Both the position numbers and the translations under genes were made by a program. Shown here in pieces: positions 8,896-18,820 of a stretch of 27,290 bases of DNA. The stretch lies in contig JAUYMQ010000462.1 in NCBI GenBank assembly GCA_030698575.1, positions 1 to 27,290 of the forward strand, given 5' to 3'. The notes beneath the pieces were generated by a model. That model had not been told where the DNA came from. It made no database searches and worked only from the letters and a program-made list of their open reading frames with translations. This DNA is from Deltaproteobacteria bacterium. GTDB taxonomy: Bacteria; JAUYMQ01. Position 1 is the first letter of the stretch. Every line of letters begins with the position of its first letter.

Positions 8896-10065
8896 ATGAA
8901 GGGTTTCGAAGCCCCCGATTTCATGGCCATGGACGGGCTCCTGACGCCCGAGGAGCGCGCCGCCGGCGCCACTGTGCGCAGCTGGGTGGAGGAGCGCTTT
9001 CTTCCGGTGATCGAGGAGCACAACCGTGCCGGCACCTTTCCGATGGAGCTGGTGCCCGAGGTCGCGAAGCTCGGTGTCTTCGGCGCGAACATGTCGGGTT
9101 ACGGCTGCGCGGGCATGTCGAACGTCGCCTATGGGCTCATCATGCAGGAGCTGGAGCGGGGCGACAGCGGCCTCAGGAGCTTCGCCAGCGTCCAGGGGGC
9201 GCTGTGCATGTATCCGATCCTCACCTTCGGAACCGATGCTCAGCGGGAGAAGTGGCTCCCCGCGATGGTGCGAGGCGAGAAGATCGGGTGCTTCGGTTTG
9301 ACGGAGCCCGACTTCGGCTCCGATCCGGGCGGCATGCGGAGCCGCGCTCGCCGCTCGGGAAAGGGCTACGTCCTGAACGGCACCAAGATGTGGATCACGA
9401 ACGGCTCGGTCGCAGACGTGGCCGTGGTCTGGGCGCGGACGGAAGAGGGCCCGGTGCGGGGGTTCCTCGTCGAGCGCGGCACGCCGGGCTACAGCGCCAG
9501 GGACATCAAAGGGAAGTTCTCCATGCGCGCCAGCGTCACGAGCGAACTGGTGCTCGATAACGTGGAGATCCCCGAGGAGAATCTGCTGCCCGGAACAGAG
9601 GGCCTCCGCTCGGCGCTCATGTGTCTGAACCAGGCCCGATACAGCATCGCATGGGGCGCCATCGGGGCGGCCATGGCCTGCTACGACACCGCCCTTCGCT
9701 ACGCCGGGAGCCGCATCGTCTTTGACAAGCCGGTGGCCGGCTACCAGCTCGTTCAGCAGAAGCTCGTCTGGATGATCACCGAGATCAGCAAGGCGCAGCT
9801 TCTCGTCCTCCAGCTCGGGCGGCTGAAGGATGACGGGCGGGCCAGGCCGGATCAGGTCTCGATGGGCAAGATGAACAACGTCCACATCGCACTCGAGATC
9901 GCCCGCATGGCCCGGGACATCCTCGGTGCAAACGGCATCATCGACGAGTATCCCGTGGCGCGGCATCTCTGCAATCTCGAAACCGTGAAGACCTACGAGG
10001 GGACTCACGACATCCACACGCTCGTGATCGGTGAGGCCATTACCGGTCTCGGCGCCTACCGCTGA
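8896..10065 (+). CDS. gcdH: Glutaryl-CoA dehydrogenase (acyl-CoA dehydrogenase family)
   Basis: The 389-residue product follows glutaryl-CoA dehydrogenase closely throughout: YGCAGMSNVAYGL, GCFGLTEPDFGSDP, GTKMWITNGS, VVWARTEEGPVRGFL, GKFSMRASVTS and ARYSIAWG. The C-terminal TYEGTHDIHTL carries the catalytic base Glu368. The enzyme uses FAD to oxidise and decarboxylate glutaryl-CoA to crotonyl-CoA, passing electrons to ETF, in lysine, tryptophan and aromatic-acid degradation. ATG 8896 has AGGA seven bases upstream and is preferred; an in-frame GTG at 8875 is the alternative. No other step of the pathway is adjacent, although a thiolase that could act downstream is partly present at the right edge. 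mutS2 begins 28 bases later. Confidence 0.93.
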   Translation: MKGFEAPDFMAMDGLLTPEERAAGATVRSWVEERFLPVIEEHNRAGTFPMELVPEVAKLGVFGANMSGYGCAGMSNVAYGLIMQELERGDSGLRSFASVQGALCMYPILTFGTDAQREKWLPAMVRGEKIGCFGLTEPDFGSDPGGMRSRARRSGKGYVLNGTKMWITNGSVADVAVVWARTEEGPVRGFLVERGTPGYSARDIKGKFSMRASVTSELVLDNVEIPEENLLPGTEGLRSALMCLNQARYSIAWGAIGAAMACYDTALRYAGSRIVFDKPVAGYQLVQQKLVWMITEISKAQLLVLQLGRLKDDGRARPDQVSMGKMNNVHIALEIARMARDILGANGIIDEYPVARHLCNLETVKTYEGTHDIHTLVIGEAITGLGAYR

Positions 10066-16183: not shown

Positions 16184-17698
16184 TCAGCCGCGCTTCTCAT
16201 CGCCACGCTTGACGGCCATGTAGAGCGACTGGCCCCCGCGTTCGATGAGCATGAGGACGGAATCGTCGCCGCCCGGCGGGACTGCGGCCGAGAACGAAGC
16301 TGTGTTCTTCACGGGCTTCTTGTTCACCTCGAGAATGAGATCGCCGGGACGAATGCCCGCTTCAGCCGCCGGACTTTCGGGCGCCACCTGCGCCACCACG
16401 ACACCCTCGCTCCGATCGACCTTGAGCTGCTTCGCTATTTCGGGAGTCAGCTCGCGAACCGCGAGCCCGAGCTTGCCCGCCGATCCGCCCCCGGCGGCCG
16501 CCACCGAAACGGCCTCGCCCTCTTCCTCGAGGCGCCCGATCTTCACATTCATGGCCTGTGCCGCGCCGGAGCGGAGGACCTTGATCGAGACCTCCTGGCC
16601 CACCGGAGTCGCTGCAACCAGGATGGGCAGGTCGTGGCTCACCTTGATGGGTTTATCCTGGTACTCGACGATTACGTCGCCCCGTCGCACGCCGGCTTTC
16701 CCGGCCGGGCCATCCGGCGCAACGTCCGCAACCAAAGCCCCTTGCTGCCCTTCGATGCCGAAGTGAGTGGCCATCTCGGGCGTGAGATCCTGGATCGACA
16801 CACCCAGCCACCCGCGGTCGACACGCCCCGTGGTCTGAAGCTGGGGGACGATCTGCTTGGCCAGGTTCACCGGAACCGCGAACCCGATGCCCTGGCCCCC
16901 CGCCACGATCTGCGCGTTGATGCCGATGACCTCGCCCTTCATGTTGAGCAGGGGTCCACCTGAGTTCCCCGGGTTGATGGAGGCGTCGGTCTGGATGAAA
17001 TCATCGTAAGGCCCCTCGAGTGTGCGGCCCTTTGCGCTCACGATCCCGGCCGTCACCGTATGATTCAGGCCGTAGGGGTTCCCCACAGCGACCACCCACT
17101 CGCCCACGCGCGCCGTATCGGAGTCACCCAGCCGGGCGGCCGGAAGAGGCGTGTCGCTCTCGACCTTCACCAGCGCCAGGTCAGTTTTCGGATCTCGCCC
17201 AACGACCTTGCCCTGCAGCTCGCGGTCGTCGAGGAGCCGGACAGAGATCTCATCGGAGTCCTGCACGACGTGGTTGTTCGTCAGGATGTAGCCGTCCTTG
17301 GAAATGATGAAGCCCGAGCCCACGCCCTGCTGCCGGGGGACCGAGGGCGTCTGCTCGAACTGCCGGAAAAACTCGCCGAAGGGATCACCTGAGCCGAAGG
17401 GGGATGGAACGCGGAAACGCACGCCCTCCAGCTTCCTGGAGACGGTGATGTTAACGACGCTGGGCGCCACCTTCTCGGCGAGATCGGCGAAGCTGGAGGC
17501 AGCGGGAACGACCGCCTCGACTGCCGGCTCTGCCGGCGCCGCCAGAGCCGGCGCAATGCTGCCCGCCCGGGGCAGCCGGCCGGACACCAGCAAGCCGATG
17601 CAGAGGGACAGAACCGCGGTCAGAACGAGGGTTCCGGCCGGCGCCGATCGCCGGCGCGCGTGCAGGGTTTCACTGCCGGAAGTTTTTTTCGAGAACAT
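16184..17698 (-). CDS. degP: Periplasmic serine protease of the HtrA/DegP family
   Basis: The 504-residue product has a basic N-terminus and one hydrophobic signal or anchor segment (about 21-40). The trypsin-like domain has catalytic His143 (LTNNHVV), Asp173 (KTDLALVKV) and Ser246 (NPGNSGGPL). Two PDZ domains follow (about 290-375 and 405-490, each with GLxV/GDxI-type carboxylate-binding and AG-rich loops). This is the DegP/DegQ/MucD layout, a periplasmic protease-chaperone for misfolded envelope proteins. ATG 17698 is chosen for GGGGAG six bases upstream; another in-frame ATG at 17734 overlaps the preceding stop (TGATG). It follows the Cys-rich small gene by 35 bases, downstream of a putative response-regulator box at 18101-18139. 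The assignment within the family (DegP versus DegQ or MucD) is not settled. Confidence 0.93.
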   Translation of the reverse strand: MFSKKTSGSETLHARRRSAPAGTLVLTAVLSLCIGLLVSGRLPRAGSIAPALAAPAEPAVEAVVPAASSFADLAEKVAPSVVNITVSRKLEGVRFRVPSPFGSGDPFGEFFRQFEQTPSVPRQQGVGSGFIISKDGYILTNNHVVQDSDEISVRLLDDRELQGKVVGRDPKTDLALVKVESDTPLPAARLGDSDTARVGEWVVAVGNPYGLNHTVTAGIVSAKGRTLEGPYDDFIQTDASINPGNSGGPLLNMKGEVIGINAQIVAGGQGIGFAVPVNLAKQIVPQLQTTGRVDRGWLGVSIQDLTPEMATHFGIEGQQGALVADVAPDGPAGKAGVRRGDVIVEYQDKPIKVSHDLPILVAATPVGQEVSIKVLRSGAAQAMNVKIGRLEEEGEAVSVAAAGGGSAGKLGLAVRELTPEIAKQLKVDRSEGVVVAQVAPESPAAEAGIRPGDLILEVNKKPVKNTASFSAAVPPGGDDSVLMLIERGGQSLYMAVKRGDEKRG

Positions 17699-17733
17699 CA
17701 AATTCTCCCCGTGGCCTCCTCGGGAGGGCACCA

Positions 17734-18006
17734 TCAGTGAAGGGTCTGTCCGCAGCGCTCCTCGAAAACACTCACCTCGAAGGCGCTCGACTTGTAGCGG
17801 GGCGAGAAGAAGAAACGGACGGTGTGGCCGCAGATGCGGCAGCGCTTGTAGCAGTAGTTATCCCCGGCATCCGTCTCGGTGCGGCCGACCTGCGCTCGAT
17901 TGCGCTCGACGCAGCACATCGAGGCCTGTGGGGGCGAGACGATGCGGACGGGGTACTCCACCCTTGCCTGTTCCACCTCCGTGTACCGGACGATGCTGAA
18001 CTTCAT
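17734..18006 (-). CDS. Small Cys-rich, zinc-ribbon-like protein of unknown function
   Basis: A 90-residue protein I do not recognise. Six cysteines lie at 31, 32, 52, 56, 59 and 85. CC at 31-32 and CYKRCRICGH at 52-61 resemble the two knuckles of a zinc ribbon or a small Fe-S/zinc site. The first 25 residues look like a beta strand pair. No signal peptide is present, so it is likely cytoplasmic. Reality as a gene is supported by AAAGGAG about ten bases upstream of ATG 18006, by its placement directly in front of degP on the same strand, and by the repeat-containing promoter region that precedes it. Being just downstream of a response-regulator gene and its probable box, it may act in the same response. 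Function is unknown. Confidence 0.65.
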   Translation of the reverse strand: MKFSIVRYTEVEQARVEYPVRIVSPPQASMCCVERNRAQVGRTETDAGDNYCYKRCRICGHTVRFFFSPRYKSSAFEVSVFEERCGQTLH

Positions 18007-18100
18007 GGCCTGGGCGCTCCTTTCGGGGGGATGTGCGCGAGCGCAGCGACTCCGGGAATCCGGAGTGGCCGCGTGATGCAGGGAGCTTAGGCGGGGGGGA

Positions 18101-18139
18101 ATTAAATGAAGCTTAGGGGCTCATTAGAAGACCCTTAAG
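18101..18139 (-). promoter_or_regulatory. Four 11-bp-phased direct repeats, PmrA-type response-regulator box
   Basis: Reading the minus strand, four half-sites follow each other with exactly five bases between: CTTAAG (18134-18139), TCTAAT (18123-18128), CCTAAG (18112-18117), TTTAAT (18101-18106). They match the known PmrA consensus YTTAAK-N5-YTTAAK with 6, 5, 5 and 6 of 6 positions. An 11-bp period is the binding pattern of OmpR/PhoB-family regulators. The last half-site can also serve as a -10 (TTTAAT), giving a start near 18094 and a leader of about 88 bases. A fifth CCTAAG at 18086-18091 is out of phase. Confidence 0.6.
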
Positions 18140-18151
18140 CGCATGGGGGCT

Positions 18152-18820
18152 TCAGGCTTTCAGGACGTACCCGACCCCCCTGACGGTCTGGAGGAGCTTG
18201 CTGCCGAAGGGCCGGTCAATCTTGTTTCGGAGGTAATTGACGTAAACGTCTATCACATTGCTGTCACTGTCGAAATGCACGTCCCAGACGTGTTCGGCGA
18301 TACTCGTACGCGTGAGGACCATGCCGGCGTTGCGCATCAGGTACTCGAGCAGGCTGTATTCCTTGGCCGTGAGATCGATGGGCTTCCCGCCCCGTGTCAC
18401 CTTCCGGCCCAGCAGATCCATGCGAAGGTCTCCCGCGAGTAGCACGGTGGGAAGATCGCTCTTGCCCCGGCGGAACAACGCGCGAGCGCGCCTGAGCAGC
18501 ACCGCGAACTCGAACGGCTTCGTCAGATAGTCGTCCGCTCCGCTGTCGAACCCCTGGATCTCGTCCTGCACCGCGTCGCGCGCGGTCAGCATGATGACGG
18601 GGGTCGTTACGCCTGTCGCGCGGAGATGTTTCAAGACGGAAGGCCCGTCGCGCTTGGGCAGCATCCAGTCGAGAATGATCAGATCGTATTCGTTGGTCTC
18701 GATGAGGAAGAGCCCCTGTTCTCCGTCGCCGGCGATATCGACGGCGTAACCTTCTTCCTCGAACCCCTTTTTCACGAAGTTGCCGACCTTGCGCTCGTCC
18801 TCCACGACCAGAATTCTCAT
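18152..18820 (-). CDS. OmpR/PhoB-family response regulator, CusR/CopR-like, orphan
   Basis: A 222-residue two-domain regulator. The receiver domain (1-118) has the acidic pair ED at 7-8, phospho-acceptor LIILDWMLP (Asp51), the Thr in MLTARD and Lys in LTKPFEF. The winged-helix domain (about 125-220) has LTAKEYSLLEYLMRN, the recognition helix SNVIDVYVNYLRNKID and TVRGVGYVL. It most resembles metal-responsive CusR/CopR-type regulators. ATG 18820 overlaps the stop of the upstream NRDE gene (ATGA) and has GGAGG six bases before it. No histidine kinase lies next to it, so its partner must be elsewhere or absent. The phased repeat box just past its stop codon suggests it controls the Cys-rich and degP genes downstream, as CpxR controls degP in E. 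coli. Confidence 0.93.
   Translation of the reverse strand: MRILVVEDERKVGNFVKKGFEEEGYAVDIAGDGEQGLFLIETNEYDLIILDWMLPKRDGPSVLKHLRATGVTTPVIMLTARDAVQDEIQGFDSGADDYLTKPFEFAVLLRRARALFRRGKSDLPTVLLAGDLRMDLLGRKVTRGGKPIDLTAKEYSLLEYLMRNAGMVLTRTSIAEHVWDVHFDSDSNVIDVYVNYLRNKIDRPFGSKLLQTVRGVGYVLKA

Follow-up and report, generated by a model that had tools for sequence, protein, structure and literature searches.

Regulator, phased repeats and degP in the window

The window, i.e. the whole stretch of DNA that was analysed, comprises 27,290 nucleotides of contig JAUYMQ010000462.1 (C154) from a Deltaproteobacteria bacterium (GCA_030698575.1). On its minus strand, a response regulator gene, which begins where a TANGO2-like gene ends, is followed by an intergenic region, a gene for a small Cys-rich protein and degP (Table 1). 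Both regulator domains, the receiver and the Trans_reg_C winged helix, scored above the Pfam cut-offs, placing the protein in the OmpR/PhoB family. Its best NCBIfam model was TIGR01387 (cztR/silR/copR), with 276.3 bits just under the cut-off of 279.2, and by these protein models the regulator is assigned to a cztR/silR/copR-like subfamily. The PmrA model (PRK10643, an NCBIfam equivalog) gave 187.1 bits versus a cut-off of 330; the regulator is PmrA-like in its DNA site, not PmrA by family model. No kinase was found beside the regulator in the window, nor an array ahead of the regulator's own operon there.

Table 1. Features of the regulator–degP locus, in window coordinates.
Feature	Position	Strand	Basis
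OmpR/PhoB-family response regulator, 222 aa, receiver and winged-helix DNA-binding domain	18152..18820	-	PF00072, PF00486
Whole array, four phased half-sites, 11-bp period	18101..18139	-	direct reading; kept in relatives
Array unit 1, CTTAAG	18139-18134	-	direct reading
Array unit 2, TCTAAT	18128-18123	-	direct reading
Array unit 3, CCTAAG	18117-18112	-	direct reading
Array unit 4, TTTAAT	18106-18101	-	direct reading
Predicted -10 box, TAAGCT	18084..18089	-	N10/N11 to TANNNT in relatives; N11 at C373 and C575
Strong hairpin with an ACTCCGG/CCGGAGT stem, within the predicted 5' UTR of the Cys-rich/degP mRNA	18047..18075	-	fold prediction
Cys-rich 90-aa protein, first gene after the array	17734..18006	-	alignment; conserved ISPP..S.CC and C..CG
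degP/HtrA Do-family serine protease, two PDZ domains	16184..17734	-	TIGR02037, 493.5 bits (cut-off 416.2)

The protease belongs to the Do family of DegP proteins. The Cys-rich protein had no match in Pfam, NCBIfam or PADLOC, and its predicted structure, with a pLDDT of 49, was too uncertain to use. The family is rare: of 385 other genomes, two have a member. On contig C373 (L122), a paralogue makes up the C-terminus of an ORF flanked by nuoB- and nuoI-like genes. The region from 18007 to 18151, with the leader hairpin, had a fold z-score of -3.6, and the hairpin itself lacks a T-run.

Direct reading of the minus strand from 18139 to 18101 (CTTAAG-GGTCT-TCTAAT-GAGCC-CCTAAG-CTTCA-TTTAAT) bore out the sequence-only reading, which had described four units in exact 11-bp steps with five bases between them, placed between the stop codon of the regulator gene (18152) and the start of the Cys-rich gene (18006). 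The array has the direct repeats, half-sites of 5–7 bp and steps of ∼11 bp that mark OmpR/PhoB binding sites. The PmrA consensus YTTAAK-N5-YTTAAK, to which the array had been likened, holds for units 1 and 4, and fails at the second base of units 2 and 3, which is C. PmrA/BasR half-sites have been given as YTTAAK, CTTAAT, CCTAAG, or TTTAAG-N5-TTTAAG, in a direct repeat with an 11-bp period; those of K. pneumoniae are CTTAAT and CCTAAG, the latter identical to unit 3 (PMC10927774). A fifth CCTAAG (18091-18086), lying 15 bp past unit 4, is out of phase, as had been noted.

Genome-wide counts were obtained by pattern searches. Across the 4.13-Mb genome, three strict YYTAAK units with N5 between them occur once, in the window array (control 0), and the relaxed pattern of three YTAA units had no match in six simulated genomes. 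When the unit matrix was trained on the relatives alone, leaving out the window, the array was the best site at 23.1 bits; nothing in 40 Mb of simulated sequence reached 18. Another window position, 21570 on the plus strand (score 15.4), was set aside as AT-rich, with no annotated gene clearly starting behind it. A genome-internal repeat element was also considered and rejected: elsewhere in the genome the leader has weak DNA matches that appear incidental, the best of them lying inside a coding gene.

Conservation and promoter geometry

Conservation of the repeats had been proposed as a check on the sequence-only reading. Among 80 loci with related regulators (54–63% identical to that of the window, so that the comparison is with distant relatives, 63% identity at most), phased repeats with 11-bp spacing were kept in 26. 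These arrays lie downstream of the regulator and a histidine kinase, mostly directly behind the kinase gene, with the consensus TTTAAT-N5-TTTAAT-N5-TTTAAT and often an extra ATTAR-like unit one step upstream. Pairs of YYTAAK in the related loci numbered 24 at a period of 11 and 1–16 at other periods, of which the next highest (16 at 22, 14 at 21) are both near twice 11; nine of ten YYTAAK triples had period 11. The protease gene follows the array in 18 of the 26 array-bearing loci, and the array/degP co-occurrence table for the 73 loci with enough downstream sequence reads 18/4/7/44, its rows being related and uncorrected for kinship. This conservation supports the original proposal that the phased site is of the OmpR/PhoB type and belongs with the regulator and degP.

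Array-bearing loci were found in Nitrospirota, Omnitrophota, Bdellovibrionota, Desulfoferrobacter and several delta-proteobacterial lineages. They are dispersed over the regulator tree, in which the long branch of the window regulator leaves its precise sister group uncertain. The recognition helix of the window regulator (SNVIDVYVNYLRNKID) matches that of the array-bearing relatives, in which it is nearly invariant. The array was absent beside related regulators in most Nitrospinota, Binatota and Geobacter loci, though the recognition helix is nearly the same, and in some Geobacter loci degP adjoins the regulator without an array. A Nitrospina genome has a regulator locus with neither array nor degP, and an array elsewhere, directly before degP (L166; 49% identity), which indicates that array and protease gene can associate without a linked regulator gene. 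In two relatives (L046, at -60; L058, at -166) an array also lies upstream of the regulator gene, suggesting autoregulation there.

The gene between array and degP can differ. A different 78-aa protein (M[YF]FKLVMEGGHVGAGKS...) occupies this place in L026 (5171-5407) and L172 (1571-1807), and its reading frame is also visible in L083, L042, L043 and L071; a second copy stands behind its own array in L172 and apparently in L162.

The distance from the third unit to a TANNNT box is 10 bases in 20 of the 26 loci and 11 bases in four. In the window's genome, two units followed by N11 and TANNNT occur only in the window and on contigs C373 and C575 (control 0), with the -10 boxes TAAGCT, TATTCT and TACGGT, respectively. 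Because relatives keep N10/N11 and the genome's other arrays share N11, the window -10 is probably the TAAGCT at 18089-18084, which begins 11 bases past the last unit. It is a weak box, and its spacing of 11 departs from the relatives' commoner 10. Its overlap with the fifth CCTAAG accounts for that out-of-phase copy. The earlier suggestion that the last unit overlaps the -10 is probably wrong: TTTAAT resembles TATAAT by its letters, but relatives have a separate -10 after N10/N11.

Direct observations comprise the array and its conservation, the constant distance from it to a -10, and its linkage to regulator, kinase and degP. The window array is a GC-rich version of the relatives' layout, in the order regulator, array, N11, TAAGCT, Cys-rich gene and degP, and on these sequence grounds we take it to be a real control site.

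A probable partner kinase, further arrays and a predicted envelope-stress regulon

A profile of the relatives' kinases had a single full-length match in the genome (C98:4901-6370, E 1e-128), the next best match covering the kinase domain only. This protein resembles the cztS/silS/copS model but misses the curated cut-off. Behind its stop codon lies GCTAAG-N5-TCTAAT-N5-ACTAAG and then the gene of a DUF2231 membrane protein; the array is degenerate (9.3 bits, two first bases off consensus) and is placed as the relatives' arrays are, behind the kinase gene. The C98 kinase is probably the partner of the window regulator, and the system as reconstructed is split in this lineage, the regulator gene and the kinase gene lying on different contigs and each having an array of its own behind it. 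The regulator had been described as an orphan that would form a compact module; it does lack a kinase locally, but with a partner-type kinase on C98 and kinases adjoining the regulator in relatives the idea of a self-sufficient module does not hold. A third array (TCTAAC-N5-TCTAAT-N5-CCTAAT) lies ahead of gspC and gspD, and a fourth (TCTAAG-N5-GCTAAT-N5-GCTAAT) at C373:9648. One further match, with one mismatch (C64:1757), adjoins a phage lysozyme gene and is probably due to chance.

We consider it very probable that the four repeats are bound as an array by the product of the regulator gene immediately upstream, and that this regulator, once phosphorylated by its kinase, activates the Cys-rich gene and degP from the TAAGCT promoter, with the other arrays of the genome acting likewise. 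A membrane histidine kinase, here probably that on C98, would phosphorylate the regulator, which would bind the phased half-sites head-to-tail on one helix face. The bound protein would replace the missing -35 element and recruit RNA polymerase to the -10 that lies 11 bases further on, and so turn on transcription of the Cys-rich gene and degP. The same regulator would also govern the array behind the C98 kinase (before DUF2231) and those ahead of gspC-gspD and of a probable small RNA. Since degP and type II secretion genes are among the predicted array targets, the system probably responds to misfolded or secreted protein in the envelope, and the array probably switches on an envelope-repair response. 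Binding by the window regulator, activation, the partnership with C98 and the envelope- or secretion-stress trigger are what we infer from these arrangements.

Could the array be true and conserved, yet bound mainly by another OmpR/PhoB-family regulator, its place beside the window regulator being incidental? With its many kinases, the genome presumably encodes several regulators, and some loci with a related regulator lack the array. Even so, we regard this as improbable, because the array stands downstream of the subfamily's own kinase gene in 26 loci from several phyla and again behind the partner-type kinase in the window's own genome, where only one regulator of the subfamily was found (E<=1e-40).

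Two other explanations were also considered. That the stretch terminates transcription of the regulator gene or forms its 3' hairpin, with CTTAAGGG...CCCCTAAG folding back, would agree with the fold z-score of -2.4 for 18105-18145, but no T-run follows, a terminator scan finds nothing there, and the units of relatives are direct TTTAAT repeats without inverted pairing; we judge it very unlikely. An AT-rich pattern arising by chance and picked post hoc had to be weighed because the consensus was fitted by eye in the sequence-only reading. The uniqueness of the array against a control of zero, its rank under the matrix built without it, with a score unreached in simulation, and its location as in relatives all oppose this explanation, and the cross-species match already refutes chance, leaving it the least credible of the three. 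Binding by the adjacent regulator is thus the reading that we retain, and the system is best read as an OmpR/PhoB-type two-component envelope-stress regulon. At the sequence level it has the components of a Cpx-like regulon, namely regulator, kinase and an envelope-protease target with a common conserved site.

Dedicated two-component systems that control degP are textbook examples in E. coli (Cpx) and Bacillus (Css), and the nearest systems by function are Cpx-degP, CssRS-htrA and CprRS. In E. coli, CpxRA likewise acts on degP, the gene of a periplasmic protease, by way of phased direct repeats, but the CpxR repeat is GTAAA, the regulator is of another subfamily, and E. coli degP does not lie beside cpxRA. 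CprRS of Campylobacter jejuni, whose genes adjoin htrA, also controls envelope functions, in another bacterial group. CssRS is Gram-positive, and its site and regulator subfamily differ from those of the window. It resembles the present system, in its secretion-stress control of htrA/htrB, as an OmpR-type two-component system controlling HtrA proteases in Bacillus and Streptomyces (PMC5157995). PmrA/BasR of Salmonella, Klebsiella and Acinetobacter shares similar half-sites, the 11-bp direct repeat and the OmpR/PhoB-type winged helix; aside from the failed family model, it differs in having two units where three or four occur here, and in governing lipid A modification rather than degP, gspC-gspD and small genes. 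Copper-type regulator sites are inverted repeats. The arrays are direct repeats; the likeness to cztR/silR/copR and cztS/silS/copS lies in the protein models, with regulator and kinase both below the curated cut-offs; no metal genes linked to the system were seen.

None of the papers found in our literature search describes a TTTAAT array together with degP, and a text search of a D. vulgaris regulator survey gave no htrA, degP or TTAA. The promoter architecture defined here, i.e. three or four phased half-sites at a fixed 10 or 11 bases from the -10, links a single regulator subfamily with degP in phyla that are largely uncultured and offers a searchable signature for envelope-stress regulons in organisms without genetics. 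It also assigns a probable kinase to a regulator that seemed an orphan, and among its further predicted targets are a type II secretion operon, the genes of a DUF2231 membrane protein and a small Cys-rich protein, and candidate small RNAs.

Candidate small RNAs behind array promoters

Seven related loci (L047, L053, L050, L056, L061, L040 and L057) have a leader behind the array promoter, marked by CCUCC and CUCCUU motifs and by a strong terminator (L047:5172-5320; equivalent positions in the other six). The five of these that were aligned (all except L040 and L057) have a conserved, structured leader with degP after it, in which five pairs are kept through changes on both sides. The leader is a candidate small RNA or attenuator. 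Behind the C373 array (L177, about 9490-9674, minus strand) come ∼150 bases with CCTCCTTG and a terminator; between this array and a convergent ilvE-like gene no plausible protein-coding frame was found on the array's strand, and the predicted transcript is a candidate small RNA of this genome. Four loci scanned against Rfam, including C373, L047 and L061 and excluding L167, gave no match.

Together, these loci suggest a small-RNA arm of the regulon. More tentatively, and with somewhat less than even confidence, we propose an ancient envelope-stress regulon spanning several phyla and split in the window lineage, in which several lineages would combine a protease arm (degP) with a small-RNA arm, the same array promoter driving short non-coding transcripts with CCUCC(UU) motifs, which are anti-Shine-Dalgarno-like, and a strong terminator. 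At a Nitrospina array (L167:1501-1660), CTCCTCC and a terminator-like hairpin lie 80–120 bases past the -10.
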